Below, in pieces: positions 9,001 through 31,253 of a stretch of 32,158 nt of DNA (position 1 is its first letter; each line of letters begins with the position of its first letter). A program made the translations under genes and the position numbers. The notes below the pieces were generated by a model, which worked only from the letters and a program-made list of their open reading frames with translations, ran no database searches and had not been told where the DNA came from. This DNA comes from Desulfuromusa sp. (lineage in GTDB: Bacteria; Desulfobacterota; Desulfuromonadia; Desulfuromonadales; Geopsychrobacteraceae). The DNA lies in the NCBI GenBank assembly GCA_029932345.1, contig JAOZQF010000004.1, positions 1 through 32,158 of the forward strand, in the 5' to 3' direction.

Positions 9001-10011
9001 CAACTGTTCACCCAGTCTCTTCTGCAGCGGATTCATAGTGTCCGTCTTCTCGGGGAAACGACCAGTAACGGCGGACTTAATGCCCATTTCACCTCAGGTG
9101 AAACACCGATCTTGTTGGCTTTTAACGGCCCTGCGGAGAGTATCGGCCAACTGTTCCCCACAGAAAAAAAGAAAAAAGCCAAGTATGGGGTCTGGGCAAA
9201 GAGCTTCGGGCAATGGGGTGATCAGGATAAAGACAGCGGTTTTAATGGTTACGACTACGATGTCTATGGTGTCGCCTTCGGCCTTGATTTTCTGTTCCAG
9301 GATCATTACCTGGTCGGCGGCAGTCTAGGTTATTCTGACACCAACGTAGATATGGATAAAAATCAAGGTGATGGGCAGGTCGATTCTTACTATGGATCAT
9401 TGTACGGTAGTTATTTTTCAGAAAAAGGTTATGTCGATGCGGTTCTCTCTTACGCTCATCTGGATTTCGATAGCTCGCGTAAAATCGTCATCGGTTCGAT
9501 TCGGGAAACCGCACGGGGTGACCATGATGGTGATTCTTATTCAGCATTTATTGAAGGTGGTTATAACTTGGGTGGCAACACTTGGGTGTTCCAGCCTTTT
9601 GCTAATCTCTTTTACGCTTATCTGGAAGAGGACGGTTTTACCGAAACTGGTGCCGGTGGGCTCAATCAGACTATCGACAAGCGCAATACGGATACCTTGA
9701 TCTCGGAACTGGGATTGCGTATCACTCCTGTCGTTCAACTGAAATCAGGTCTGTTGATTCCTGAGGCCAGTCTCGCCTGGAATTATAATTTTGATATCGA
9801 TGACCGGACCATTAAGTCGTCGATTGCCGGACAGCCGGGCACGTCGTTCACAATCGACGGGAATAGTGTGAAGAAATCCGGTGCGGTTGTCGAAGTTGGC
9901 ATGACCTACCTTGGTTACAGTGGGTTTAAGCCTTCAGTGCGCTACCGTGGGGAGTTTCGAGATGGATATAGAGGAGATGCTATCATCGGCGAACTGCGCT
10001 GGGAGTTTTAG
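1..10011 (+). CDS. Giant repetitive autotransporter (type Va) outer-membrane protein/adhesin, 5' partial
   Basis: Frame 1 is open from base 1 (DGNDDLDNSGLLNA...), so the TTG at 31 is not a convincing start. Passenger of >2,700 aa made of GD.V.NSG / ATAIDTG / AVWDGGTKA repeats, followed by a C-terminal beta-barrel (KYGVWAKSFGQWG...YDVYGVAFGLDFLF) ending in ELRWEF with terminal Phe. Confidence 0.93.
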   Translation, partial: DGNDDLDNSGLLNATATATALSANVAVVNKGVAAAADAVWDGGTKAEATAVGIAGDGGDRSRTTYLAIGTDQFKFEKNTITADGMDNINNRGEINTAAMANAASIGVAVAAKGIGVATSTATAESRAAAIDAGSGDSIDDLYNSGKLNAVSTARAAAASVSVTNKGLAISADSVWDGGTKATAVARGIDVGAGGEALTNDGQIDAAADAATASASIAVSMKGVAGASATATGKADAIAIDASAGDDVDTVTNNGVLTANATALSTAASISVTNQGLAIASGAVWDGGTKAEGSARGIDVGDGGDVIDNNGAVTVSSLSAAAEAAVGVAVKGVAGAVATSTSKSAAVALHAGDDDDNAVDVVTNSGDLTANADAGAVSAAVSFSNQGVAIAGGAVWDGGTHSTADARGIELGGGADEVDNSGDISANSISLVAELAASVSISGVAGSVATSTGKSNATAIDTGSGNAVDSVINSGNLSATSAAAAATAAISVTNAGLAVAGGAVWDGGTKGSSEARGIYVGAGLENVGDSIDNSGNITATSTGIAAEVAAAISVSGVAGATATSTGSSLATAIDASEGTDTDSVINSGSLRAESTAAAATSTVTFTNAGLAVAAGAVWDGGTKAISDSYGIAVGDGQDRVDNSGKVTAIANAAAAELGVSVAVTGVAGAIATSTGKSSATAIDTGAVEEDADTVINRGDLTAEANALAATATVSVTTAGVAVAGGASWAGGTTANAQARGIEVGEGTDLVDNSGNIDIWSNSIAAEAAVAVAVSGVAAGVATATSSADASAIDTGFGNAVDVVKNSGDLDVTSHALAATTSVSVTTAGVAVAAGDVWDGGTEAKSSARGIEVGEGADTIENSGSVQTDAWAESASATISVAVAGVAGAVSTATATADSTAIDTGSEEYNDVIINKGDVGADATAIAASAAVSFTAAGVAISGGAAWDGGTTAKSDAIAMNLGGGADVVYSDGVVTADALATSTDIAASVAILGVAGAITAANSHAAVTGIDLGAGADVVETYNLISVSSVSNSNTVANADSKFGVTVAGNNSWDGGTRSNSTASGITAGSGSDRIDNYADISSSATSVPTASALTFVVGGVGVANSTATADARANAIDAGSENDTINNLGDLNATATAAAVASNVALTGIGVGVAADAVWDGGTTSNSDARGIAGGAGDDLILTGNAEDVSVINATANSTSVSTSLAVTVGGVAGAISTSTANADASGIDAGTGNDTMISNSAVTGFANANAASTSVALTGVGAAVASDSFWDGGTKTNAYATGLSGGVGDDEVRNLDFARAEADSDATSVAAAVTVGGIAGAAAAATATAEAVTLSGDKGDDTVVNEGVVEAVADATATGVSVAFTGLGISVAGTFFEGGSTSDTVARGIGGGAGEDVLVNSLDAMIDVQSHARTSDTAVAVALFGVAGAGSRATAISDGYGIDGGDDADVILNEGIITQATSADAVATSISYAGTGAAISSAGSVGHSQGTGLAGGGGDDIVTNTGQVDLTSTAKAIGQSISVTYGFGGSIADANADAIAAATGIAGNDGADILTNASTLKVSTNAGTTARSISYSTLGIALGKANSTSEVAVTGMSGDAGGDTIINSEAGEIVVASKATADAGSVAIVLGGVANAEARSSILADATGLSGGIGDDAIRNDGILGIQSNSISTANSASVGFLGVSGAKAGTEVETRAVGISGGDGSDNIVNTGSIRVGTAVGATGDESYMAVLRGAAASTGLAGLASAEASAFAATESTGIAGGADDDFISNRGDGDITVLARSLNQTGALAIQIFGSAEAAGESGAFTLATGLSGGVGNDTIESLTQLYVEAESELLHNGASLTFAGASEAESSLQARTEAVGINGDSDDDAILTGGTIVVEATSTMVSSNGASATFGSGSVAGQAGAATRATAVDGGDGHDIIDSSADITLIALSDLALHGSSFSLGGSSASSGQLAATTQAEALVGGGGNDQIVNRGVISIIAQSEMTSSGAAKTGFGSSSASNVSGGITRATGMRGGDGDDLVENFSGAEIIVDASTKVDADAITYTFAGGTSAGNLLTGLSYADGITGGEGNDQLLNNGRMVISATADLTARGGSKSTFTGGSSSATGKSAAGADVVGMNGGEGDDLVISTGNIEVRAKSIARAQNNSSSSASFSSDQIAGSISETTATATGLRGESGNDTLINTANLMVFADSTAYSFAYANGASFSFDGDAEARSTSTATATATGFSAEDGDVVVRNDGQLTVTATAGTSEDLVSTLIFYRLQGDYEEDVDPDEIAIAETVTTEPDWDDPDVQAQYTDGDILYCTDAACVQNSDINSTGNHYRVAVEQVDDDNDSNTAPIDVYSWVVFAVVDDLPDLTNPAVSSQYVTGEIVACTSISCREAPSVESSATYWTVIVEPVDDDNDPNTAPIDVYSWEQQTGLVIEVSVEITETSFPTYAAANANGLDGDGVARATGVTTASAYGIQLGNGHNDVVSNDMNINAVANSVINSASDGDVFGDSRGSVNASATAKAYGIAVGDGDDYVWNSGTMSVTATPMAQGYTAVSPGGGICIWFFGWWCAAGGTPDAQAITTFTAEASGILAGAGDNFITNDGSIIVTAAPDVIDDLRRPDYGEYAAMTRGDGSPVRTVISHSTAIGILTGDGNDTVINNGTIIVEAKDILSGCADGSCGIPANVQATLSASGIVTGAGNDIVTNRGAVVANLVQNGVRTGSIAISTGAGNDTISLFDPVEVIHPETGETLTVSVVGDIDFGSGDDTLHLTGSPIIQGDMRLGAVDDGVDSLIVEGAGFFDKSLLDFESATKLGAGIYRVTTLSSLQRLEMKEGTLESDGSYTFASDGLFRTTVHSDGSHGKLHLLGAAELDGNLSVLRSSGGPYLDGTRYAIIEANDGLVGTFSDVSLPPDTRLLSFMLDDTSPTLREVVVDAESFGSVAKSRLAQTLSGYLDSWMTTATGDLRTTLGKFQTLSSAEIEQAFRSFSPEQYDSLTVSTTKSTQLFTQSLLQRIHSVRLLGETTSNGGLNAHFTSGETPILLAFNGPAESIGQLFPTEKKKKAKYGVWAKSFGQWGDQDKDSGFNGYDYDVYGVAFGLDFLFQDHYLVGGSLGYSDTNVDMDKNQGDGQVDSYYGSLYGSYFSEKGYVDAVLSYAHLDFDSSRKIVIGSIRETARGDHDGDSYSAFIEGGYNLGGNTWVFQPFANLFYAYLEEDGFTETGAGGLNQTIDKRNTDTLISELGLRITPVVQLKSGLLIPEASLAWNYNFDIDDRTIKSSIAGQPGTSFTIDGNSVKKSGAVVEVGMTYLGYSGFKPSVRYRGEFRDGYRGDAIIGELRWEF
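106..4200 (+). repeat. Coding tandem repeat, ~330 bp (~110 aa) unit with WDGGT signature, about 13 copies
   Basis: WDGGT or variant (AVWDGGTKA, ASWAGGTTA, TFFEGGSTS) recurs near 118, 520, 849, 1186, 1510, 1850, 2180, 2508, 2833, 3154, 3477, 3811 and 4130, with spacing of roughly 318-342 bp after the first copy. Confidence 0.9.
4200..6780 (+). repeat. Degenerate ~55-60-aa half-repeats (TGLSGG.GDD.I.N.G) without WDGGT
   Basis: Translated motifs such as ATGLSGGIGDDAIRNDG, AVGISGGDGSDNIVNTG and TAVDGGDGHDIIDSSA continue after the WDGGT signature is lost. Confidence 0.75.
6868..7275 (+). repeat. Two tandem 70-aa modules inside the autotransporter (Y..GDI..C....C...Y...VE.VDDDND.NTAPIDVYSW)
   Basis: gtcgatgatgacaatgat..aacaccgctcc.atagacgtatacag.tggg occurs at 7009 and at 7219, 210 bp apart, with about 4 mismatches in 52 nt. 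Confidence 0.88.
9181..10008 (+). other. Autotransporter beta-barrel domain coding region
   Basis: Alternating aromatic/polar strand pattern, YGVWAKSFGQWGDQDKD start, EASLAWNYNFD and VRYRGEFRDGYRGDAIIGELRWEF end, typical of C-terminal autotransporter domains. Confidence 0.88.
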
Positions 10012-16372: not shown

Positions 16373-16594
16373 ATCAATATGGTTTTGTTAGCGTGGGGCG
16401 GATCCCTTTGCACCCGGCTTTTTTTGGTGGGGGGATGGATGTTTTTTTATAGAATGTGACTTATTTTGACACAGTGGTGTGGTAGGGTTGTGAGGTAGTG
16501 AGCTAATGGTTTCGTTTGGCGCACACTAAATAGTCAATCAGGCTAAATTCGGTATGAAATATATCCATTGTTTAGAAAAGAATTTGGAGGAACA

Positions 16595-17428
16595 ATGACT
16601 GAGAAACTGGCTATTTTTAAGGGAAAAGAAATTCGCCGTACTATTCATGACGATGAATGGTGGTTTTCGGTTGTCGATGTTTGCGGTGTCCTGACGGGTA
16701 GTGCTGATGCTGGTGCCTATTGGCGCAAACTAAAGCAGCGGTTAAGCAATGAAGAAAGTGAAGTCGTGACATTTTGTCACGGGTTGAAATTGAAGGCACC
16801 TGACGGCAAAAATCGTACAACCGATTGTGCCAACACCGAAGGCATATTTCGCATTATCCAATCTATCCCATCCCCCAAGGCCGAACCATTTAAACGCTGG
16901 TTGGCCAAGGTTGGCTACGAACGGGTACAAGAAATTGAAGACCCAGAATTGGCAACCAAGCGTACTCGTGAGCTGTATCAGGCTAAAGGTTATTCTGATG
17001 CCTGGATTGAAAAACGGATGCGCGGCATCGCCGTTCGTGCTGAATTAACCGAGGAATGGAAAAATCGAGATGTCGGCAAGAGCCGTGAGTATTCCATCCT
17101 TACCGCCGAAATATCCAAAGCAGCATTTGGGGTGACCCCTTCTGAGTACAAACAACTCAAAGGTTTACAGCGAGAAAATCTGCGCGACCATATGGGGGAC
17201 CTCGAATTGATTTTTTCTATGCTTGGCGAAGCAGCTACGACGGAAATTACCAAAACAAAAGATGCACAGGGATTTGATGAAAATCTCTGTGCAGCGAACA
17301 AGGGTGGCACGATTGCCGGTGATGCCCGGAAAAAATTGGAACAGGAATCGGGTCGCAAAGTGATGTCTGGGGGGAATTATCTGGACATACCAGAAAAGCA
17401 AAAACGGTTGGAGAAAAGGGGAAGCTGA
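16595..17428 (+). CDS. Orphan Bro-N domain (phage antirepressor-like) protein
   Basis: FKGKEIRRTIHDDEWWFSVVDVCGVLTGSADAGAYWRKLKQRL (Bro-N) plus ILTAEISKAAFGVTPSEYKQLKGLQRENLRDHMGDLELIFSMLGEAATTEITKTKDAQGF...GGTIAGDARKKLE; ATG at 16595 preceded by ggagg. Confidence 0.85.
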   Translation: MTEKLAIFKGKEIRRTIHDDEWWFSVVDVCGVLTGSADAGAYWRKLKQRLSNEESEVVTFCHGLKLKAPDGKNRTTDCANTEGIFRIIQSIPSPKAEPFKRWLAKVGYERVQEIEDPELATKRTRELYQAKGYSDAWIEKRMRGIAVRAELTEEWKNRDVGKSREYSILTAEISKAAFGVTPSEYKQLKGLQRENLRDHMGDLELIFSMLGEAATTEITKTKDAQGFDENLCAANKGGTIAGDARKKLEQESGRKVMSGGNYLDIPEKQKRLEKRGS

Positions 17429-17586: not shown

Positions 17587-19191
17587 CTAGTTTTCAGTTT
17601 CAGGCGGCAGGGGTTTGGATTCAAAAAGAGTGCTGGCATGTCTGGCAAAACCGAGGCCGGCCTCATTGTAGAAATTAAAGGCGGTGGTGACACCTGCTTC
17701 TTCTAGCTCAGTGATCTGGTCGTCAAAGTGGGCGGTTGCGACGATTATCCCGCGGAATTTGTGTGACGCGAGATGTTTCGCAGCGGTCAGGTTAACCTGA
17801 TGTTTCGGCATCGCCAGCATCACCATCCCGGCTTTCCCTTCCTGTCGCTTGATGCGCGGCCAGAAATCCGGGTTGGTTGGATCGGCCAGGATGACCCGCC
17901 GACCGGCGGCGCAATGCTGCTTGACTTTGGTTTCATTAAAGTCAAATCCGAGAACCGTCTCGCCATACTTTTCACGCATAAAATCGTAGGCCATGGTGCC
18001 GATTCGGCCCATCCCGAAGATCCCGATGGTTGTTTCTCCCAGGTCGATCGGTGGCTCCTCGGCATGGTGGGCTTCGACCTCGAACTTACACAACTTTTCA
18101 CGATACCTCGTGTAGAGTGCATCAGCCATACTGTTTAACGGCGAGGCAATGACAAATGTTGCTGAGAGTGCCAGGGCGATAATCACCAGCCACTCCGGAC
18201 CGATCCAACCTTGTGAAGATCCCACTGCCGCGACAATCAGGCCGAACTCACTGTAGTTTGCCAGACTTAACGAGCCGAGCAGGGCAGAGCGGGCACGCAG
18301 TTTAAAGCGGGTCAGCAGCAGGTAGAAGAGGCCGACTTTTAGTGGCGCGACAGCTACCAGCAGGGCGGCAATTCCCACAGTGGTCAAGTCTGGGTTCCCG
18401 GAGAGGCCGATGGTCAGAAAGAAACCAACCAGCAGCAGTTCTTTGAACCCCAGCAAGGTTTTGGCCAGTTCTGAACTTTTGGGATGACCTGCCAGCAGGA
18501 TACCGAGGATCAGTGCCCCGAGGTCTGCTTTGAGCCCGACCAGTTCAAAGCCGCTGGCTCCGGCTACCAATGCCGCGAACAGTCCAAACAGTAGCAGTAG
18601 CTCACCGTGGCCGCTGCGGGTCATCAATCTAAATAGCAGTGGTCGCAGGCCCCAGAGAACCAGGGGGATCAACAGTGCCCACAAAGATGGCAGTTTGCCG
18701 AGGGAGAAGGTTAGAAAAAGGACGGCAAAGATATCCTGCATGATCAGAATGCCGATGGAGACCCGTCCGTGCAGCGCTCCCATTTCCCCTTTCTCTTCGA
18801 GGATTTTGACGGCAAAAACGGTGCTGGAAAAACTGAGCGCAAAGGCAACCAGGATTGCTAGCGGGAAAGTCAGGTCGGTAAATAACGGCAGTCCGGCCAT
18901 GCCTAGCCCGAACAGTCCGGCGCTGAAGGCCGCTATGGTGATCAGCATATGTAATGAGGCCCCTGCCCAGACCTCAGGTTTTGCCAGACTCTTCAGATCA
19001 AGCTTCAGACCGATGGAGAAGAGCAGCAGGGTCACGCCGAGATCGGCGATCGTCTGCAGAGTCTCTCCCCCCTCGAAACCAAGACCGTCGAGAACAAAGC
19101 CGGCCACCAGAAAGCCGACCAATGGTGGCAGACCAACCTGCCGGACCAGGAATCCCAAAATAAAAGCAACAGTGATCAGCAGCGGATCCAT
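17587..19191 (-). CDS. KefB-type CPA2 monovalent cation:proton antiporter with C-terminal NAD-binding (TrkA-N) domain
   Basis: MDPLLITVAFILGFLVRQVGLPPLVGFLVAGFVLDGLG...DLGVTLLLFSIGLKLDLKSL...FALSFSSTVFAVKILEEKGE; TTIGIFGMGRIGTMAYDFMREKYGETVLGFDFNE. Confidence 0.9.
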   Translation of the reverse strand: MDPLLITVAFILGFLVRQVGLPPLVGFLVAGFVLDGLGFEGGETLQTIADLGVTLLLFSIGLKLDLKSLAKPEVWAGASLHMLITIAAFSAGLFGLGMAGLPLFTDLTFPLAILVAFALSFSSTVFAVKILEEKGEMGALHGRVSIGILIMQDIFAVLFLTFSLGKLPSLWALLIPLVLWGLRPLLFRLMTRSGHGELLLLFGLFAALVAGASGFELVGLKADLGALILGILLAGHPKSSELAKTLLGFKELLLVGFFLTIGLSGNPDLTTVGIAALLVAVAPLKVGLFYLLLTRFKLRARSALLGSLSLANYSEFGLIVAAVGSSQGWIGPEWLVIIALALSATFVIASPLNSMADALYTRYREKLCKFEVEAHHAEEPPIDLGETTIGIFGMGRIGTMAYDFMREKYGETVLGFDFNETKVKQHCAAGRRVILADPTNPDFWPRIKRQEGKAGMVMLAMPKHQVNLTAAKHLASHKFRGIIVATAHFDDQITELEEAGVTTAFNFYNEAGLGFARHASTLFESKPLPPETEN

Positions 19192-19686: not shown

Positions 19687-20079
19687 ATGGTCGAACAGTA
19701 TCTGGTCGATTACATGTATGTATTTGTGCTTTTAATCATGGGCATTATCTGCGGCGTTGCGCCCCTGTTGATCTCCGTGTTTTTTGCACCCCGTCATCTG
19801 TACCTTAAGACTCGAGATACCTATGAGTGCGGTATGGATCCTTACGGCACGGCATGGAATATCCGTTTTGATGTGTCTTATTATCTCTATGCCCTTATTT
19901 TTCTGGCATTTGATGTTGATGTTCTGTACCTGTTCCCTGTTGCCACCGCTTTTGATACCGTTTCGGCAGTGCGGGGAATTTCTGAATTGATGATTTTTGT
20001 TGGCATTTTATCTCTGGCGATTGTCTACGCTTGGGTTAAGGGAGTATTTACGTGGCCGAACAGAAGAAAAGCCTGCTAA
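19687..20079 (+). CDS. nuoA: NADH-quinone oxidoreductase subunit A
   Basis: [46 protein letters not shown]; ggaggt upstream of ATG. Confidence 0.96.
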
Positions 20080-20645
20080 ACGTCCACTCCTATTCCAAGG
20101 AGTGTGCTGAGCGCTATGACGGCGCTGATCTGCAGCAAACCAAAACTTCAGATGGACCACCGCTGATCCAGATGAAATTGTCTGATGCGATCTTCGATCT
20201 GTGTCGAGCCAACTCTCTCTGGCCTCTCACTTTTGGTCTTTCGTGCTGTGCTATTGAGATGATGTGTTGTGGTATGGCCCGTTTCGATATGGCTCGCTAC
20301 GGTGCCGAGGTTTTTCGCCCCTCTCCACGTCAATCTGACTTGATGATTGTTGCTGGTACGGTTAATCGTAAGATGGCCCCCGCTCTTGTTACCCTGTATG
20401 AGCAGATGCCGGCACCCCGCTATGTTATCGCTATGGGTAACTGTGCTGTGGCTGGTGGTCCTTTTGCGGTAGAGGCAAACTATGATGTTGTCCTCGGTGT
20501 CGATAAGCTGATTCCGGTCGATGTTTATATTCCCGGTTGTCCACCCCGCCCGGAAGCCTTGATTGAAGGTATCCTGCAGTTACAAGAGCAAATTACCGGC
20601 AAGCGTTTCCCGTTCCCGCAGAACAAGATGCCGGAGGGAGCGTAA
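20052..20645 (+). CDS. nuoB: NADH-quinone oxidoreductase subunit B
   Basis: [50 protein letters not shown]...[11 protein letters not shown]...[20 protein letters not shown]. Confidence 0.97.
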
Positions 20646-20649
20646 AACG

Positions 20650-21204
20650 ATGGATATTAATAAACTAAAAAAACAGTGGCAGGATCTTTCAACAGCTGTT
20701 GAAGGTATCGATTATTCAGTCAGTGGTCATGACTATAACGTCTCTCTTGAGCGTGACAAAGTTCGTGATTTTGCAGCGCTGATGCTTGAGGAGGGGTTTT
20801 ATCTGGTTGATTTGATGGCAGTCCATGTGACTCCGGCCATCGAAGTGGTTTACCAGTTTGCTCACTTTGAAGCCCGCTGCCGAGTTCTGGCGCGTGCTTT
20901 TGTTGATGATAATAGTGAAATGCCGACTATCTCTGATATCTATCAGGGAGCTAATTGGCATGAGCGTGAAACCCGTGATTTTCACGGTGTCGTATTTGTT
21001 GATCATCCATACCTCTACCCATTGATTCTGGCGGAAGAGGATGTTGATCTGAAGCCACTGTTGAAAGATGAGGCAAATCTCAAAGATGTTGATGCCGTAA
21101 GGCGGAAACCGCCTGAGCCTGCGCCCGAGCCAAAGCCTGAGGTCAAACCTGAGGTGAAGCCCGAAGCCAAGCCTGAAGCCGCCAAGAGTCAGGAGCAAAG
21201 CTGA
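20650..21204 (+). CDS. nuoC: NADH-quinone oxidoreductase subunit C with Pro/Glu/Lys-rich C-terminal tail
   Basis: LVDLMAVHVTPAIEVVYQF...PTISDIYQGANWHERETRDFHGVVF; tail PEPAPEPKPEVKPEVKPEAKPEAAKSQEQS. Confidence 0.93.
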   Translation: MDINKLKKQWQDLSTAVEGIDYSVSGHDYNVSLERDKVRDFAALMLEEGFYLVDLMAVHVTPAIEVVYQFAHFEARCRVLARAFVDDNSEMPTISDIYQGANWHERETRDFHGVVFVDHPYLYPLILAEEDVDLKPLLKDEANLKDVDAVRRKPPEPAPEPKPEVKPEVKPEAKPEAAKSQEQS

Positions 21205-22331
21205 TGGCCATGGATGTAGAAATACTGGAAGATCCCAAACATCACCGTTATGTTTTGAATATGGGACCCCAGCATCCAAGTACCCACGGGGTGCTGCGGG
21301 TGTTGCTGGAGCTTGAAGGTGAGTATGCGATGGAGCTATTGCCGGTTCTTGGTTATGGGCATCGCTGTCATGAGAAAATTGCTGAGCATAAGCCGGTTAA
21401 GTCATTTATGCCGAATACGGCACGGATGGACTACCTTGGTGCGTTGATTTATAACCACGGTTACGCTCAACTGCTGGAGCGGGCAGCTGGAATTGAGGTT
21501 CCCGAGCGGGTTGAGTATATTCGGGTGATTACCTCAGAGCTGAACCGGATTCAGAGTCACCTCCTCTGGTATGGTGCCTACCTGCTGGACCTGGGCGCAT
21601 TTACCCCGATTATGTATGCCTTTGATGATCGTGAGCACATTCTCGATATTCTTGAAGATGTGACCGGTTCCCGGTTGACCTACTGTTATTTCAGGGTTGG
21701 CGGGGTGAGTAAAGATATTGATGACAAATTTGTCACCAGCACCAGAGCTTTTGTCAAGCGGTTGCGCAGTCGATTCCCGATGTACGAAGATCTGGTGAAT
21801 GGCAATGTTATCCTCCAGAACCGCCTGAATGATGTCGGTGAACTCACACCACATACCTGCGCTCGCTATGGAATCACTGGTCCATTGTTGCGCGGTACCG
21901 GTGTTGCTTATGATATGCGCCGGGCTGAACCATATTCAATTTATTCTCAATTTGATTTTGAAATCCCGACCGGAACCAAAGGTGACTGTATGGCATCTTT
22001 TATGGTTCGTTTCCACGAACTGGAGCAGAGTCTGCGGATCATTGAGCAGGCATTGGATGGGTTACCCGAAGGTCCGATAATGACCCCAAAGGTTCCCAAA
22101 AAGTTGAAAATTCCGGCTGGTGATTATAATAGTTCGGTTGAGGCACCACGTGGTGAGCTTTCGTACTATCTTGTTTCTGATGGATCAGATGTCCCGTATC
22201 GTCTCAAAGTGAGAACACCGTCATATTCCAACCTGAGTGTTGTTCCGGAGATGTGTCAGGGGATGCTTCTTTCAGATGTTGTATCGGCCATGGGGGCTCT
22301 TGATCTGGTTATCCCCGAGATTGACAGGTAG
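21204..22331 (+). CDS. nuoD: NADH-quinone oxidoreductase subunit D
   Basis: NMGPQHPSTHGVLRVLLELEGE...LGYGHRCHEKIAEHK...GRLT-type core with VEAPRGELSYYLVSDGSDVPYRLKVRTPSYSNL. Confidence 0.97.
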   Translation: MAMDVEILEDPKHHRYVLNMGPQHPSTHGVLRVLLELEGEYAMELLPVLGYGHRCHEKIAEHKPVKSFMPNTARMDYLGALIYNHGYAQLLERAAGIEVPERVEYIRVITSELNRIQSHLLWYGAYLLDLGAFTPIMYAFDDREHILDILEDVTGSRLTYCYFRVGGVSKDIDDKFVTSTRAFVKRLRSRFPMYEDLVNGNVILQNRLNDVGELTPHTCARYGITGPLLRGTGVAYDMRRAEPYSIYSQFDFEIPTGTKGDCMASFMVRFHELEQSLRIIEQALDGLPEGPIMTPKVPKKLKIPAGDYNSSVEAPRGELSYYLVSDGSDVPYRLKVRTPSYSNLSVVPEMCQGMLLSDVVSAMGALDLVIPEIDR

Positions 22332-22336
22332 GGTAT

Positions 22337-23323
22337 ATGGAAATCTTTTACAGTTTACTTCCGGAGCTGATTCGGATCGTTATTGCTGCCATATGTGGAG
22401 CCGTGATCGTGTTTGGCAACGCTCTGGTGATGGGTTATGCCGAGCGGAAGCTGGCGGGGCACATCATGTTTCGACCCGGGCCGATGGAAGTTGGCCCGCA
22501 CGGTATTTATCAGTTGGTGATCGATGGCTTAAAGTTGATGGGTAAACAACTGGTGATTCCGAAAAACGCAGATACGCCACTGTTTATGTTGGCTCCATTG
22601 ATTGCGTTTGCTCCGGTTTTTGTCCCCTTGCTGGTAATACCATTCAGTGACAAGATTCAGGGTTTTGACCTGGATGTCGGTTTGCTGTTGATTCTCGCTT
22701 TTGCCTCAATCAATGTTCTGGCGATTCTGATTGGTGGTTGGAGTTCCAACAATAAATATTCTTTGTTTGGCGCTATCCGTTCCGTTGCCCAGAATGTCGC
22801 CTATGAAATCCCGATGCTGATTTCGTTGCTGGCTATCATCTTCATGACTAATACTTTCAGCTTGAAAGAGATTGCCGCAGCGCAGAGTCCGGTCTGGTTC
22901 GTCGTCATCCAACCTTTGGCTTTTCTGATTTACATCGTAGCTATGGTTGCTGAAACTAACCGTGCACCGTTTGACTTGCCGGAGGCCGAGAGTGAATTGA
23001 CCGCAGGTTTCCACACGGAGTACAGCGGCATGAGCTTCAGTCTGTTCGTGTTGGGTGAGTACGCCAACATGTTTATTGTCTGCAGCGTTGCAACGGTTTT
23101 CTTTCTCGGCGGAGATTCCGGGATTCCGTTGCCGTATTTCGAGTATACCGGGATTATCTGGTTCCTGTTGAAAGTCTATCTGTTGATGTTCTTCCTGATC
23201 TGGATCCGTTGGACCTACCCTCGAACCCGTTTTGATCAGTTGATGAATTTTTGCTGGAAGTATCTGATTCCATTTTCACTGGTTAACCTCCTTATTACTG
23301 TCGTGATGGTGAAGCTGCTATGA
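22337..23323 (+). CDS. nuoH: NADH-quinone oxidoreductase subunit H
   Basis: GYAERKLAGHIMFRPGPMEVGPHGIYQLVIDGLKLMGKQ...ETNRAPFDLPEAESELTAGFHTEYSGMSFSLFVLGEYANM. Confidence 0.97.
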   Translation: MEIFYSLLPELIRIVIAAICGAVIVFGNALVMGYAERKLAGHIMFRPGPMEVGPHGIYQLVIDGLKLMGKQLVIPKNADTPLFMLAPLIAFAPVFVPLLVIPFSDKIQGFDLDVGLLLILAFASINVLAILIGGWSSNNKYSLFGAIRSVAQNVAYEIPMLISLLAIIFMTNTFSLKEIAAAQSPVWFVVIQPLAFLIYIVAMVAETNRAPFDLPEAESELTAGFHTEYSGMSFSLFVLGEYANMFIVCSVATVFFLGGDSGIPLPYFEYTGIIWFLLKVYLLMFFLIWIRWTYPRTRFDQLMNFCWKYLIPFSLVNLLITVVMVKLL

Positions 23324-23760
23324 AATCCTATTTCTCAACGTTATTTACGGGAGCATGGAGCCTTATCCTTGGCCTGAAGGTCACTATCAAGGCGCTGTTC
23401 TCACCAATTGTTACTTGTCAGTATCCACGCGAGAAAATGGAGGTTACTCCCAACTATCGTGGTCATATTGATCTGGTTAAGTTTGCCGATACTGGCGCAC
23501 ACAAATGTATCAGCTGCGGTAGCTGTATGCGTGATTGTCCTTCTGACTGCATTGTCGTTGAGGGGGAAAAGCGCGAAGGGGTCAAGGGGAAGGTGTTAAC
23601 GATATTTACCCTCGACTTTACCAAATGCAGTCTCTGCGGTGCCTGTGTCGAAGTCTGTCCAACTAAAGCTCTCGATTATTGCAATGATTATGAATTGGCG
23701 GGGTTTACGCGTGAAGAGTTTTACTTCGACCTATTGAAGAGAGTGGAGGAACGGGAATGA
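23320..23760 (+). CDS. nuoI: NADH-quinone oxidoreductase subunit I (2x[4Fe-4S])
   Basis: CISCGSCMRDCPSDCI and CSLCGACVEVCPTKAL ferredoxin motifs. Confidence 0.95.
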   Translation: MKSYFSTLFTGAWSLILGLKVTIKALFSPIVTCQYPREKMEVTPNYRGHIDLVKFADTGAHKCISCGSCMRDCPSDCIVVEGEKREGVKGKVLTIFTLDFTKCSLCGACVEVCPTKALDYCNDYELAGFTREEFYFDLLKRVEERE

Positions 23761-24284
23761 TTGTTTTTGAGTACATCGCCGAAGCTCTCTTTTTCGGATT
23801 TGTGATCCTGACATTTATGGGTGGATTCATGGCGATCCGATCCAGGCTGTTGATGCACGCCGTTCTGGGCCTGGCGGTTTCACTGTTTGGAGTTGCTGGC
23901 CTCTATTTTCACCTTGGCAGCCCTTTTCTGGCGATGATGCAGATACTGATTTATGTCGGTGCTGTCTGTATCATCATTGTCCTGGGGGTGATGATCGGCA
24001 ATACTCCGGACCAACTGTTGGCCAAGAAGCAGGTTAGAAAAAACCTGCCGTTAGCTTTGGTGACTTGTGCCCTCGGGTTTGTCGGGTTGTTCGTGGCAAT
24101 GATTGTGCGAACCGAATTTACTTCAGCGACAGAAAAAGTGGGTGACATGTCGATCCGCTTTGTCGGTGAAAACCTGTTGTATCAATATTGTATGGCCTTT
24201 GAATTGATTTCAGTTGTATTGCTGACAGCTATTATTGGTGCCATTATCCTGGCACGTGGCGGTCGGGAGGAAGAGACATCATGA
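23757..24284 (+). CDS. nuoJ: NADH-quinone oxidoreductase subunit J
   Basis: AVLGLAVSLFGVAGLYFHLGSPFLAMMQILIYVGAVCIIIVLGVMI. Confidence 0.94.
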   Translation: MIVFEYIAEALFFGFVILTFMGGFMAIRSRLLMHAVLGLAVSLFGVAGLYFHLGSPFLAMMQILIYVGAVCIIIVLGVMIGNTPDQLLAKKQVRKNLPLALVTCALGFVGLFVAMIVRTEFTSATEKVGDMSIRFVGENLLYQYCMAFELISVVLLTAIIGAIILARGGREEETS

Positions 24285-24598
24285 TGATCAGCGCTAATTT
24301 AAATACTTATCTGATTATCGCCGCCGTTTTGCTGGTTATTGGTTTGTACGGCATGGTGCAACATCGCTCTTTGATCGGCATGCTGATTTCGAGTGAATTT
24401 ATCCTCAACGGTGCTGCTTTAAACTTTATGGCATTTAATCGCTTTGTTGCACCAAATCCGGCGGTCGGACAGATCTATGCTCTGTTTATCATGGGGATTG
24501 CGGCGGCTGAAGCGGCGATAGCGGTGAGTATTATCATCGCGGTGTATCGTAAGTATCAAAGTGAAGATCCTGAGGATCTTCAAGATATGAAAATGTGA
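24281..24598 (+). CDS. nuoK: NADH-quinone oxidoreductase subunit K
   Basis: LIGMLISSEFILNGAALNFMAFNRF...GQIYALFIMGIAAAEAAIAVSIIIAVYR. Confidence 0.95.
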   Translation: MMISANLNTYLIIAAVLLVIGLYGMVQHRSLIGMLISSEFILNGAALNFMAFNRFVAPNPAVGQIYALFIMGIAAAEAAIAVSIIIAVYRKYQSEDPEDLQDMKM

Positions 24599-24672
24599 TT
24601 TTTTCCGATAGTTGGTAACGGCAGCCACTTAAGGCTCTGTAGTAAGACACACCACTTGAGAAAGTACATGCA

Positions 24673-26166
24673 ATGAACACAATTATCACCAGTAAAATTC
24701 TCATGACAATGCTGATTCCGATGATCACGGCACTACTCGTCTTGATTACGGGGAAAAAAGAGAACCTGCGCGACGGGATATCGGTTATTGGTGCCATTTT
24801 GACCTTTGCCTCGGTGCTGAGTTTTCTCCCAGTTATTCAAGGTGGAGATCAGCTGCAGTATACACTGTTTCAGATCTATCCCGGGGTAACGGTCAAATTG
24901 AATCTGGACCCGCTCGGGGTGATTTTTGCCATGGTGGCATCTTTTCTGTGGATTTTAGCCGCTCTATACTGTGTCGGCTATATGCGCGGACTTAAAGAGC
25001 ATGCCCAGACCCGTTTTTATATCTGTTATGCAGTTTCGGTTGGCGCTGCGATGGGTGCCGCATTTGCTGGTAACCTGTTTACCCTGTACTTGTTCTATGA
25101 GATTGTTTCTATTTTCACCTATCCTCTGGTTATGCACCATCAGGATAAAGAGGGTTACTGGGGATCCAAAAAATACATTGTTTATCTGATGTTCACCTCC
25201 AAAGCATTTCTGTTGCCGGCGATGATTATCATTTACGTCCTCTGTGGAACTCTTGATTTCAACACCGCCAGCATTGCCACCGGAATTTTCCCGGCTGATG
25301 CTGATCGCTTTGTCGTTGGGATCACCTACCTGCTTTGTTTCTTCGGCTTTGCCAAGGCGGGTGTTATGCCACTCCATAACTGGTTGCCAGATGCGATGGT
25401 TGCACCGACTCCAGTCAGTGCATTGCTCCACGCCGTTGTCGTTGTTAAAGTTGGGGTCTTCTCCATCTGTCGCGTTATGCTCTCTATCTTTGGTACCGAT
25501 ATCCTGCATGAAACCGGTCTGGGCTTATTTACCGCGTATTTTGTCTCATTTACCATTCTGACCGCCTCAGTCATTGCTCTCACTAAAACTAATCTCAAGG
25601 CACGACTCGCTTATTCAACTGTCAGCCAATTGTCTTATATTATTCTGGGTGTTGCCATGTTAACCCCGAATTCTATTACCGGTGGTCTGATCCATATTGC
25701 TAACCATGCATTTGCCAAAATCACCCTGTTCTTTGCTGCTGGCTGTATTTTTGTTGCCAGTGGGAAAAAGGATATCTCTGAGATGGGGGGGCTTGGTAAA
25801 CGGATGCCTTGGACTATGACGGCATTTGGTCTTGCTTCGCTGGGGATGATCGGTGTCCCTCCGGTTGGCGGCTTTGTAACCAAGTGGTACCTGGCTCTGG
25901 GGACAATTGACCTGCATAACTGGATTTTGCTGACGGTATTGCTGGTGAGTAGTTTGCTCAATGCCGGTTATTTTGTCCCGGTTGTTCTAAAGGCCTTTTT
26001 TGGCAAGCCATTACCTGCCGATGAAGGATTAACCAGCAGCCTTGAGGGAAAACCTCTGATTATGTTTATGGTTATTCCATTGTGTATAACCGGAGCAATA
26101 TCGGTATTGATTGGTGTTTATCCCACCCTGTTTCTGGACCTCATTAACCTTATGGTGAAGTCATGA
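24673..26166 (+). CDS. Proton-conducting membrane transporter, MrpD/NuoN-like antiporter subunit
   Basis: FYEIVSIFTYPLVMHHQDKEGYWGSKKYIVYLMFTSK, HNWLPDAMVAPTPVSALLHAVVVVKVGVFSICRVML, LAYSTVSQLSYIILGVAM. Confidence 0.9.
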   Translation: MNTIITSKILMTMLIPMITALLVLITGKKENLRDGISVIGAILTFASVLSFLPVIQGGDQLQYTLFQIYPGVTVKLNLDPLGVIFAMVASFLWILAALYCVGYMRGLKEHAQTRFYICYAVSVGAAMGAAFAGNLFTLYLFYEIVSIFTYPLVMHHQDKEGYWGSKKYIVYLMFTSKAFLLPAMIIIYVLCGTLDFNTASIATGIFPADADRFVVGITYLLCFFGFAKAGVMPLHNWLPDAMVAPTPVSALLHAVVVVKVGVFSICRVMLSIFGTDILHETGLGLFTAYFVSFTILTASVIALTKTNLKARLAYSTVSQLSYIILGVAMLTPNSITGGLIHIANHAFAKITLFFAAGCIFVASGKKDISEMGGLGKRMPWTMTAFGLASLGMIGVPPVGGFVTKWYLALGTIDLHNWILLTVLLVSSLLNAGYFVPVVLKAFFGKPLPADEGLTSSLEGKPLIMFMVIPLCITGAISVLIGVYPTLFLDLINLMVKS

Positions 26167-26411
26167 TTGTTAATTTTCTAACTTACTTGCGGGAAAGACC
26201 AAGTTTTTTAAAATGGTTGTTTCTGGCCTATCTGGCTTTTGCCTTGATCTTCGATTTTTTTGCTGATCGACATCATGCCCACTTCTGGGGCGATCATCTG
26301 GTGGGCTTTTGGGCGGCATTCGGTCTGGTCGGGTGCCTGGCTATGATTGTATTCTGTAAAGGGCTGTCGCACGTATGGCTGGAGAGGGACAAGGATCATT
26401 ATGACAAGTAG
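26163..26411 (+). CDS. Small (82 aa) membrane protein of the complex I cluster, predicted two TM segments
   Basis: MIVNFLTYLRERPSFLKWLFLAYLAFALIFDFFADRHHAHFWGDHLVGFWAAFGLVGCLAMIVFCKGLSHVWLERDKDHYDK; translationally coupled to both neighbours by overlaps. Confidence 0.8.
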   Translation: MIVNFLTYLRERPSFLKWLFLAYLAFALIFDFFADRHHAHFWGDHLVGFWAAFGLVGCLAMIVFCKGLSHVWLERDKDHYDK

Positions 26412-28167
26412 TATTTTTATGCATCCAGCCACCATGTTCATTATTGGTGCGCTGCTTCTCCCTTTAGCTAAAAAGTGTAAAGTCCAGAAAATCTGGCTGG
26501 TACTGATACCCCTGGTGGCATTTATTCAGATTCAGTATCTACCGGAATCATTCGGTAAGGTTGAGTGGCTGGGTTTTGATTTACAGTTTGGTCGAGTTGA
26601 CAAGCTGACGATGGTCTTTTTACACGTTTTCACTTTAATGGCGCTGATCGGAAGTATCTTCGGTCTCCATGTCAAGGAGAGTGGTCAACACGTAGCCGCC
26701 TGGCTATATGTTGCCGGTTCTCTGGGAACTACGCTGGCTGGTGATTACTTGACGGTATTCATCTTCTGGGAACTGATGGCTTTTGCTTCGGTCTTCCTGA
26801 TCTGGTACCGCAAGCGGAAACGTTCAATCGAAGCCGGTTACCGCTACCTGTTGGTCCATACATTTGGTGGGTTAGTGCTTTTGGGCGGGATATTCCTTCG
26901 CTATCAGAATGTCGGTGATCTCACCTTTGAGTTGATTTCTGTCGATCAAGCAACCTTAGCCGATTATCTGATTATGATTGGTTTCATGCTCAATGCGGCA
27001 GTACCACCAATTCACGCCTGGCTACCGGATGCTTATCCAGAAGCAACGGTCACCGGCGCTGTATTTATGTGCGCTTTTACGACTAAAACTGCCGTTTATG
27101 TTCTGGCGCGTGGATTTGCCGGATTTGAAACACTGGCAATCATGGGTGCCATCATGACCCTGTACGGGGTCGCTTACGCGGTTATAGAAAACGATGCCCG
27201 GCGAATATTGGCGTACCATATCGTCAGTCAGGTCGGCTACATGGTCTGTGCGGTTGGGATTGGTACCGAAATGGCGATCAATGGTGCCAGTGCCCATGCC
27301 TATGCCCATATCCTCTATAAAGCTTTGTTGTTCATGGGGATTGGTAGTGTTCTGGAGATGACCGGGCGTTCCAAACTTAGTGAGTTGGGCGGCTTGTATA
27401 AATATATGCCGTACACCATGATTTTTACTGTGATCGGTGGTATTTCAATCTCCGGATTCCCGCTGACCAGTGGCTTTATCAGTAAATCTATGATTATTGC
27501 GGCAGCGGGCAATAATCACCAGCTTGTCATTATGGCTATGTTGTTGCTGGCAGCCGTTGGTACTTTCTTGTCGGTTGGAATCAAATTACCATATTATGTT
27601 TTCTTTGGACCCAGGGATAGCGGACTTCAGCCCAAGGAAGCTCCCTGGAATATGCAAGTCGCCATGGGTATTGCTGCTTTTATGTGTATTTTCCTCGGTT
27701 TTTACCCCGATTATCTTTACGACATGCTCCCCTATGCGGTGAATTATCATCCATATAACAGCTACCATTTAACTGAAACTTTTCACCTTCTTGGCTTCAC
27801 CGGACTTGGTTTCTACCTTATGGTCAAATACCTCAAGCCTCACGATGTTTCTAACCTTGATCTTGACTGGTTCTATCGTCGCGGTGCTGATTGGTTCATG
27901 TGGGTTGCCCGCAAGCCGGTTAGTGCCACCAACGAATGGGTCAGTAACATTTATCAGAATATTGGTTTGCGCTTTACCATGGCGCTGGCTCGTGCCCTCT
28001 CCTGGTTTGACTGGGAAGGGATCGATTGGGCTCTGGATGGTAGCGCCCGTGGTGTTGTTAAAGGTGGAGAACAGGTCCGACAGTTTCAGACCGGGAAGTT
28101 GCAGCATTACATAGGTGCTGCAGTGGCTCTGTTGTTCATAGTGCTTATCGTTGTGGTTCTGGTCTGA
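26401..28167 (+). CDS. NuoL/MrpD-like Na+/H+ antiporter family subunit of complex I
   Basis: Internal ATG at 26401 (MTSSIFMHPATMF...); IHAWLPDAYPEATVTGAVFMCAFTTKTAVYVLARGF, ILAYHIVSQVGYMVCAVGIG, HAYAHILYKALLFMGIGSV. Confidence 0.88.
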   Translation: MTSSIFMHPATMFIIGALLLPLAKKCKVQKIWLVLIPLVAFIQIQYLPESFGKVEWLGFDLQFGRVDKLTMVFLHVFTLMALIGSIFGLHVKESGQHVAAWLYVAGSLGTTLAGDYLTVFIFWELMAFASVFLIWYRKRKRSIEAGYRYLLVHTFGGLVLLGGIFLRYQNVGDLTFELISVDQATLADYLIMIGFMLNAAVPPIHAWLPDAYPEATVTGAVFMCAFTTKTAVYVLARGFAGFETLAIMGAIMTLYGVAYAVIENDARRILAYHIVSQVGYMVCAVGIGTEMAINGASAHAYAHILYKALLFMGIGSVLEMTGRSKLSELGGLYKYMPYTMIFTVIGGISISGFPLTSGFISKSMIIAAAGNNHQLVIMAMLLLAAVGTFLSVGIKLPYYVFFGPRDSGLQPKEAPWNMQVAMGIAAFMCIFLGFYPDYLYDMLPYAVNYHPYNSYHLTETFHLLGFTGLGFYLMVKYLKPHDVSNLDLDWFYRRGADWFMWVARKPVSATNEWVSNIYQNIGLRFTMALARALSWFDWEGIDWALDGSARGVVKGGEQVRQFQTGKLQHYIGAAVALLFIVLIVVVLV

Positions 28168-28218
28168 CCCTGTCCGCTAATTTACAGACAGGCAATTACT
28201 CTTAGACAGTAGGAAGTC

Positions 28219-29814
28219 ATGGAAAACTATCTAATCCTGAATACATTAAATTTTCCGATCTTATCGTTGCTGCTGATAGTACCGGTGGTCGGAGCCATTG
28301 TCGCCATGTTTTTACGTGGTGATACCGTGCTTAAATTCTGGGGCCTTGCCGTTACCCTGGTCACGGCACTGGTCTCACTGCCGTTGTGGACCCGCTTTGA
28401 TCAAACTACAGCTAAATATCAGTTCGTTGAATTGCGCCACTGGTTTCCCGCTTTGGATCTTGATTATGTTGTCGGTGTCGACGGAATCAGCGTCCTGCTG
28501 GTGCTCCTTACAACCCTGGTGATGCCCCTGTGTGTTCTCTGCTCCTGGACCTATATCAAAACCCGCTGGAAAGAGTTTGTCATCGTTACCTTGTTGATGG
28601 AAACGGCCATGCTTGGGGTTTTTGTCAGTTTGAACACGGTACTGTTCTGGATCTTCTGGGAGGGGATGTTAGTCCCCATGTACCTGATTATTGCTATCTG
28701 GGGCGGGGCACGCAAAGATTACGCATCAATCAAGTTTTTTCTCTACACCTTTTGCGGCAGTATTTTTCTGCTGGTTGCAATCGTGGCGATGTATATCAAG
28801 ACAGGAACTTTCTTTATTCCGGAATTGATGGCTCATAACTTCGATTTTTCATATCAAGTTTGGATATTCCTCGCCTGTGCCCTTGGTTTTGCTATCAAAA
28901 TGCCAATGTTTCCGTTCCACACCTGGCTGCCTGCTGCTCACGTTGAGGCTCCGGTTGCCGGATCGGTTATTCTCGCCAGTATTCTGCTGAAAATGGGTGG
29001 CTACGGATTCTTGCGCTTCTGTCTACCCATGGCTCCGGCCGCAACGGTATACTTTGTGCCGCTGCTTCTGGTGATGTCACTGGTCAGTATTGTTGTTGGT
29101 GGATATCTGGCCTTGGGACAATCGGATATCAAGAAATTGATCGCCTATTCTTCAGTCGGGCATATGGGCTTTGTTACCCTGGGAATCTTTCTGCTCAATG
29201 ACGCCGGGATCAAAGGTGCGATGCTGCAGATGCTCAACCACGGGATTACAACGGGTGCCCTGTTTATCCTGATCGGGATCATTTACGAGCGAACCCACAG
29301 TCGTGAGATTGCTGACAACAGCAAGCTGGGGATGTTCATGCCGATCTATGTCACCTTTTTGGGCATTTTCTCTCTGTCATCGTTGGCTTTTCCTGGAACC
29401 AACAGTTTTGTCAGTGAGTTTCTGGTGCTCTTCGGTGCTTTTGACAAGTTCCCACTGGTTGGTGCTGTTTCGATCCTCGGAGCAATTCTTGCTGCAGCGT
29501 ATATGTTGCGCCTGATGCAAAAAATGGTCTGGGATGATTCCGATGGTCATGTGCCTCACGGAGAGCATGCAGAAGAGCGCAAGCGTATTCTCTTTGATTG
29601 TAATCCACGGGAAATCATTCAACTGGCGTTTTTAACTGTCTTTGTTTTTTGGATTGGTCTCCACCCAACGCCACTACTCGATATGATGGATAGCAGTGTT
29701 GCTCACCTGATTCATCAGATTGATGCTGGCAGTGTTATGCCGGATGCAGCACATCATGGTGAGAGTCATGCTCTGCTTGAAAATGCAGGCACTTGGATCA
29801 AGAATCTCTTTTAA
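28219..29814 (+). CDS. nuoM: NADH-quinone oxidoreductase subunit M
   Basis: FWIFWEGMLVPMYLIIAIWGG, FPFHTWLPAAHVEAPVAGSVILASILLKMGGYGFLRF, LIAYSSVGHMGFVTLGIF. Confidence 0.96.
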   Translation: MENYLILNTLNFPILSLLLIVPVVGAIVAMFLRGDTVLKFWGLAVTLVTALVSLPLWTRFDQTTAKYQFVELRHWFPALDLDYVVGVDGISVLLVLLTTLVMPLCVLCSWTYIKTRWKEFVIVTLLMETAMLGVFVSLNTVLFWIFWEGMLVPMYLIIAIWGGARKDYASIKFFLYTFCGSIFLLVAIVAMYIKTGTFFIPELMAHNFDFSYQVWIFLACALGFAIKMPMFPFHTWLPAAHVEAPVAGSVILASILLKMGGYGFLRFCLPMAPAATVYFVPLLLVMSLVSIVVGGYLALGQSDIKKLIAYSSVGHMGFVTLGIFLLNDAGIKGAMLQMLNHGITTGALFILIGIIYERTHSREIADNSKLGMFMPIYVTFLGIFSLSSLAFPGTNSFVSEFLVLFGAFDKFPLVGAVSILGAILAAAYMLRLMQKMVWDDSDGHVPHGEHAEERKRILFDCNPREIIQLAFLTVFVFWIGLHPTPLLDMMDSSVAHLIHQIDAGSVMPDAAHHGESHALLENAGTWIKNLF

Positions 29815-29834
29815 CTCAAGAATCGGATCAACTT

Positions 29835-31253
29835 ATGTTAAACACGGTTTTTATGCCAGAAATTGCCCTGATGTTAACGGCCTTAGTTTTGTTTTTTATG
29901 ACTTTGGGCAAATTTCGTACTGGTACTGTTCAGGCAGTGAGTCTGGTGCTGACCGCAATTACTCTGATTATTACCTTTGCCAGCCTTGGTACTCAGGGGC
30001 TGATGTTTTATGATGTCTATCAGATTGATGCCCTGTCTCAGCTATTCAAAGTCGTGATTGTTTTCGGTCTGTTTCTGGTTTTCTTCCTGGGTCGTGATTT
30101 AACCGGAATCGAAGAGAAGTTACACACCGAATACAACATGTTTCTGGCAATAAGCGCCCTGGGGCTGGTTTTTTTGAGCAGCTCAGTTGAACTTTTAACC
30201 ATCTTGCTCAGCCTTGAAATCTCATCTTACGCTCTCTATGTTGTCATTCCGTTTAGGCGTGGGCAGGGACGGATCCATGTTGAAGCCGGAATTAAATACA
30301 TTCTCTTCGGTGCTGCCTCAACCGGACTGACTCTCTACGGGATGAGTTACATCTTTGGTCTGGCGCACACCACCTACTTGTCAGAACTGTCAGAAAAATT
30401 ACCGGGATTGGTCGCAACACAACCTTTGGCTGTCATCGCAATTGTTTTGGTGATGGTCGCTTTTTTCTATAAATTGGCAATGTTCCCGATGCACTTCTGG
30501 GCACCAGATGTCTATCAGGGTGCAGCCAATGAAACTACCAGTTTTGTAGCAACACTCCCCAAGGTTGGTGCAGTTTTGTTGTTGCTGCGGTTTGTCGCAG
30601 TTGCCGGGTTTGATATCTCCCAGGTTACCTGGGTTCTGGCGACAATTGCTGTATTGTCAATGGTTTTTGGTAACTTCAGTGCCCTGGTACAAACAGACTT
30701 AAAGCGATTACTTGCTTATTCCAGTATCGCTCACGCCGGTTATGTGATGATCGGAATCTTGACGGCAGATAAAATGGGAATGGCAGCCGCAGTCTTTTAT
30801 GTTATCGGCTATCTGCTGATGAATCTTGGTGCATTTTATGTCATCTACAATATTTCACCTAAAGGGGAAAACGTGACCTTTGATGATCTTAAGGGATTGT
30901 CGCGTCGTTCTCCGTTGCTGGCATTAACGCTACTTGTGTCTGTTTTTGGTATGGCGGGTATCCCACCAACCATCGGTTTTATTGGTAAGTTTATGATTTT
31001 TACCGGAGCCTTGCATAAGGGATTCTATGCTCTGGTTGTGATTGCAGTGATGAATGCTGCAGTTGCTTCTTTTTACTACCTGAAAATGGCGAGAGCGGCA
31101 TATTGCGCTGCAGATAACGAGCAGGAAGTTATTGTCCTCCCCCTCGGGGCAAAGCTTATGGGTGCTTTTTTCATTCTTGCAATTATTTTGATCGGGGCGT
31201 TGCCACAAAGTCTTCTTGCCAGTGCTAAGGCCGCAGTTGCAACCCTGCTTTGA
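29835..31253 (+). CDS. nuoN: NADH-quinone oxidoreductase subunit N
   Basis: LLSLEISSYALYVVIPFRRG, FPMHFWAPDVYQGAANETTSFVATLPKVGAVLLLLRF, LLAYSSIAHAGYVMIGIL; ATG at 29835. Confidence 0.95.
   Translation: MLNTVFMPEIALMLTALVLFFMTLGKFRTGTVQAVSLVLTAITLIITFASLGTQGLMFYDVYQIDALSQLFKVVIVFGLFLVFFLGRDLTGIEEKLHTEYNMFLAISALGLVFLSSSVELLTILLSLEISSYALYVVIPFRRGQGRIHVEAGIKYILFGAASTGLTLYGMSYIFGLAHTTYLSELSEKLPGLVATQPLAVIAIVLVMVAFFYKLAMFPMHFWAPDVYQGAANETTSFVATLPKVGAVLLLLRFVAVAGFDISQVTWVLATIAVLSMVFGNFSALVQTDLKRLLAYSSIAHAGYVMIGILTADKMGMAAAVFYVIGYLLMNLGAFYVIYNISPKGENVTFDDLKGLSRRSPLLALTLLVSVFGMAGIPPTIGFIGKFMIFTGALHKGFYALVVIAVMNAAVASFYYLKMARAAYCAADNEQEVIVLPLGAKLMGAFFILAIILIGALPQSLLASAKAAVATLL

Follow-up and report, generated by a model that had tools for sequence, protein, structure and literature searches.

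Do the two MrpD-like subunits that stand in for NuoL in some forms of complex I act as a pair on their own, or is there a third partner? The question is raised by a short open reading frame lying between the two antiporter genes of a complex I operon in a 32,158-nucleotide stretch of Desulfuromusa DNA (the window). Tallies of green-type complex I have so far listed the core subunits and two MrpD-like pumps. Should the product of the small gene prove to be a subunit, the inventories of green-type complex I and of related Mrp antiporters are both incomplete.

The complex I operon and its small gene

The window comes from a fragmented draft genome of 235 contigs, and its closest named relative, judged by D2, is a Desulfuromusa MAG (96% identity). 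The operon runs in the order NuoA-B-C-D-H-I-J-K, D1, small, D2, NuoM, NuoN, with the following features:

19687..20079 (+), NuoA
20052..20645 (+), NuoB
20563..21204 (+), NuoC
21204..22331 (+), NuoD
22337..23323 (+), NuoH
23320..23760 (+), NuoI
23757..24284 (+), NuoJ
24281..24598 (+), NuoK
24673..26166 (+), D1, MrpD-like antiporter subunit (NCBIfam NF006236 PRK08375.1-1, 752 bits versus a cut-off of 663)
26163..26411 (+), small, putative 82-aa two-TM subunit with a His/acid loop at residues 35-45 and a conserved tail, ERDKDHYD
26401..28167 (+), D2, second antiporter subunit, 588 aa (NCBIfam NF009310 PRK12668, 756 bits versus a cut-off of 564)
28219..29814 (+), NuoM (TIGR01972, 574 bits)
29793..31253 (+), NuoN (TIGR01770, 356 bits)

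The start of D2 was taken as the ATG at 26401; the mechanical open reading frame opens at TTG 26347. Canonical NuoL is absent from the operon (19687-31253): D1 and D2 occupy its place and, with NuoM and NuoN, bring the antiporter-like subunits to four. NuoEFG are absent from the operon as well, and NuoF had no match in G000 or in five of the six further genomes of the genus searched (G001, G003, G004, G008, and G011), three of them being listed as 100% complete; a match was present in the remaining one, G005. Because the operon lacks NuoEFG and six genomes lack a NuoF match, gene content suggests that the electron donor is probably not NADH delivered through the usual module.

The small gene has an ATG start that overlaps the stop codon of D1 as ATGA, and its 3' end overlaps D2 by 11 nt. 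Its product has two hydrophobic segments flanking the loop DRHHAHFWGDH, and the protein carries histidines at positions 37, 38, 40, 45, 70, and 79. The two-TM protein and the overlaps with both neighbors, as first described in a sequence-only reading of this DNA, were confirmed; the overlaps suggest coupled translation. A frame so short, with no Pfam or NCBIfam match, could in principle be a chance or vestigial product of operon overlap, a reading to which we give almost no credence: dN/dS between the window and 12 relatives was 0.03-0.09 (about 0.05), matches were found in 42 of 60 related genomes (one of the weakest, on contig 120 of G014, is a CAAX-protease-like false match), and the gene sits in the same place across several phyla. 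Judged by the first two of these measures, it is a real gene and strongly conserved.

A three-gene cassette shared by complex I and Mrp operons

In a class-level survey of 277 genomes searched for all three genes, 103 carried the small gene, 101 carried D2, and 105 carried D1; the tallies for clean genomes (68/187) and for genera (43/82) were identical for the three, and the D1 and D2 families had no match in 14 control genomes. Directly upstream of a D2 match and on the same strand lay 116 of the 118 small-gene matches. The other two are in G012 and G114, neither of which has a D2 match; in G012, the small gene is followed almost at once by the end of the contig. Conversely, 116 of 124 D2 matches were accompanied by the small gene, and each of the eight exceptions was either a contig edge, at which two of these loci start, or a divergent two-TM ORF: the other six loci belong to a divergent Mrp clade with such an ORF in the same gap. 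These gap ORFs mostly end in REDYYD or similar, and that of L086 resembles the small gene by position and shape only.

Among 80 named loci, which are the best matches to the D2 profile and not a random sample, 73 held both D1 and D2, and in all 73 the small gene lay between them (with the ATGA overlap in 50). The named loci span at least six phyla (Thermodesulfobacteriota, Verrucomicrobiota, Pseudomonadota, Planctomycetota, Acidobacteriota, and Fidelibacterota), a count that leaves out “Deltaproteobacteria” MAGs filed by NCBI under Myxococcota; the Pseudomonadota include rhizobia, Rhodobacterales, Moritella, and Wenzhouxiangella. Loss of the small gene beside an intact MrpD-like pair, which would have told against the sequence-only reading, was seen in none of these loci. 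As a control, a second Mrp-type operon of G049 (L100; G049:C1:2066000-2084000) has three antiporter-like genes, one of them distantly D1-like, and neither D2 nor the small gene. On this genomic distribution, the small gene is the obligate third member of a D1-small-D2 cassette, recognized here as new.

The same triplet occurs in Mrp antiporter operons, so that the small protein is not tied to complex I alone, the setting in which it was first noticed. The Mrp operons of relatives run MnhE, MrpF, MrpG, MbhD, MbhE, MnhB, MrpC, MrpD, and then D1-small-D2, and both the Mrp and the complex I versions were present in G011, G043, G049, and probably G028. Trees of D1 and D2, which fix neither a root nor the way in which the cassette moved, require at least two changes of context; on these phylogenies, the cassette moved between Mrp and complex I at least twice. 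A single clade of complex I cassettes was rejected on the concatenated tree (p-AU 0.0073), a result to which recombination may contribute (L034). In the Mrp cassette of L034 (G049), D1 falls in one Mrp clade and D2 in another, near the complex I cassettes; recombination inside this triplet is suggested because its D1 and D2 group with different relatives. The strictness of the triplet suggests that what Mrp and complex I exchange is a module of three genes, and such a module makes the old question of how complex I gained antiporter modules directly testable.

The small protein and its partner D2

Neither the single small protein nor all 35 members of A1 could be placed in a Pfam or NCBIfam family, the searches returning scattered weak and inconsistent matches. 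Searches of the PDB by profile and by Foldseek gave no credible match, the Foldseek negative being a weak one at the pTM of the model (0.45). Descent from a known Mrp or Nuo subunit was rejected on hhalign comparisons with MrpB/C/E/F/G, MbhD/E, and NuoA/J/K, in which the probability was at most 2.6% each; by the same measure, the classical small Mrp subunits MrpE/F/G/B/C are nonhomologous to the small protein. In rhizobia, 99 plasmid records carry the small gene; among the 25 of them listed, from a plasmid gene table that is incomplete, the protein is labelled “hypothetical protein” or has no listed gene. The cassette also offers a simple annotation rule for this gene of nitrogen-fixing rhizobia, at present labelled “hypothetical protein.”

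The AlphaFold model of the small protein (mean pLDDT 74) has a short N-terminal helix (residues 2-11), TM1 (13-33), TM2 (49-72), and a low-confidence tail. Mean K+R counts were 4.27 before TM1, 1.29 in the loop, and 3.17 after TM2, and the positive-inside rule held in 91 of 108 small proteins. Because of this charge distribution, the predicted topology, which combines the positive-inside rule with a model of modest confidence, most likely places both termini on the cytoplasmic side and the loop on the periplasmic side. Across the 108 sequences, the acid at position 44 was present in all, K/R66 and Tyr80 in 107 each, and at least one loop His in 106; His made up 13.5% of loop residues versus 1.5% elsewhere, a roughly nine-fold enrichment. 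The His/acid loop picked out by the sequence-only reading is thus a trait of the family. Of the functions that it had suggested, metal binding at a fixed His site is unlikely and, as an invariant-His site, unsupported: none of the individual His positions is invariant, and H40, found in 77% of the complex I form, is kept in 17% of the Mrp form, where it is mostly Phe.

The predicted fold of D2 is NuoL/MrpA-like, the best Foldseek matches being MrpA and NuoL chains, and its C terminus resembles that of NuoL in having long helices (490-563) and a last TM, in a part of the model of low confidence. From the TM12 Lys to the C terminus, the window D2 has 226 residues versus 214 in Escherichia coli NuoL, and the medians were 230 in 73 complex I D2 proteins and 231 in 29 Mrp D2 proteins; a lengthening of the lateral helix with pump number was not seen, since the complex I and Mrp forms are equally long. 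In all 102 D2 sequences, from complex I and Mrp operons together, Asn replaces the TM7 Lys of NuoL, whereas the TM5 Glu, TM8 Lys, and TM12 Lys are retained. The Asn at the TM7 site calls into question whether D2 pumps by the usual mechanism.

Three features make a direct part in ion movement the main rival to a structural role: the acid at position 44 is invariant, the loop is rich in His, and D2 lacks the TM7 Lys. The loop would then be a periplasmic entry or exit site for protons or cations, or a metal ligand, for D1-D2, and the small protein would possibly offset the missing Lys. Such a role also accords with a cassette common to cation/proton antiporters, and charged residues that do not vary could, in a membrane protein of this size, equally reflect a part in ion transport. 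We nevertheless regard it as unlikely: no His is invariant, the loop is predicted to lie outside the membrane, conserved acids are no less typical of contacts between subunits, and D2 keeps the other three residues named above. Similarly doubtful is a broader proposal, in which the small protein would be an unrecognized obligate subunit defining a transferable D1-small-D2 module in Mrp and complex I, with its acid/His loop in the ion path and the TM7-Lys-less D2 an unusual translocator, perhaps of Na+ and not H+.

A proposed structural role at the distal membrane arm

We think it very probable that the alternative complex I and the Mrp-type Na+/H+ antiporters each have the small protein as a hitherto missing subunit. 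We further consider it likely that it is a stoichiometric structural subunit keeping D1 and D2 joined at the distal end of the membrane arm. A physical partnership with D1 and D2 is proposed because the triplet is strict, is shared with Mrp, and shows no loss. In complex I, the cassette takes the place of NuoL and brings the antiporter-like subunits to four, and in Mrp-type operons, it lies beside MrpD. With two membrane spans and cytoplasmic termini, the small protein would pack against D1/D2 and lock the pair together. Its loop, with the invariant acid and the histidines, would touch the pair from the periplasmic side, and its EDYYD tail and Lys66 would do so from the cytoplasmic side. Because the lateral helix of D2 is of roughly canonical NuoL length, D2 would take the NuoL place and D1 the tip; the proposed distal location draws on this length and on the cyanobacterial analogy below. 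The view of the sequence-only reading that the protein is a dedicated linker between two extra antiporter modules thus survives in part: it is a dedicated partner of the MrpD-like pair, but the pair replaces NuoL and is not extra.

The same genetic evidence could be read as that of an assembly factor, acting in the insertion or pairing of D1 and D2 and absent from the finished complex, given that overlaps with both partner genes and a strict position between them fit cotranslational assembly equally well, as does the genomic co-occurrence. As a rule, however, the gene for an assembly factor lies elsewhere and is more readily lost or replaced, whereas the small gene was absent from none of the loci examined, highly divergent cassettes included; we therefore think this reading improbable.

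For the structural subunit that we favor, the closest functional analogy lies in cyanobacterial NDH-1L, in which NdhP and NdhQ touch NdhD and NdhF at the distal arm and their deletion disassembles the complex (PMC6992706). These too are tiny membrane subunits at a distal antiporter-like pair and are needed for a stable complex, and the small protein may occupy the border between D1 and D2 and hold it in the way that NdhP/NdhQ hold NdhD and NdhF. The likeness is one of function only: no sequence or fold match to the small protein was found (PDB profile search; Foldseek with a low-confidence model), and NdhP/NdhQ are smaller (NdhP about 5 kDa) and part of the photosynthetic NDH-1. If the small protein acts in this way, leaving it out of a structure or reconstitution would put the stability of the complex at risk.

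Green complex I is the established name for a complex I in which two MrpD-like subunits replace NuoL; D1 and D2 correspond to these subunits in the same place. Rhizobial loci L137, L146, and L154 share the D1-small-D2-NuoM-NuoN order of the window and fall in the same cassette tree, but they are rearranged relative to the ABCDHIJK order without NuoEFG of the window operon. Green complex I also has an N-module and a NuoG with extra Fe-S clusters (PMC4967309), features not shared by the window operon. Since the operon has no NuoEFG and NuoF is absent from G000 and five of six genomes of the genus, our claim is limited to the same antiporter cassette as green complex I and does not extend to full membership. 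What is new relative to the known green complex I is the small subunit, together with the cassette of three genes; the literature on green complex I that we found, which did not cover the founding papers, makes no mention of the small subunit, and an earlier mention is possible.

Chadwick et al. reportedly described in 2018 a 2M complex I with a second NuoM; the window operon has a single NuoM, and D1 and D2 score best to other families. In Complex_I_3 of “Ca. Manganitrophaceae,” an MrpD1 and MrpD2 pair replaces NuoL, as in the window operon, and two NuoM bring the pumping subunits to five (PMC9040806). The MrpD2 of that complex has a 26-aa insert in its lateral helix (PMC9040806), and none of that size is evident in the window D2 at the lengths given above.

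Elsewhere in the window, a 3326-aa open reading frame at 31-10011 (+) has no Pfam match, and a BRO-N domain protein, of a family often found in phages and viruses, is encoded at 16568-17428 (+) between TrmO and a Na+/H+ exchanger. Encoded on the opposite strand from the operon and upstream of it (17587-19191, -), this exchanger carries a TrkA-N domain and is another monovalent-cation transporter beside the Mrp-like cassette.
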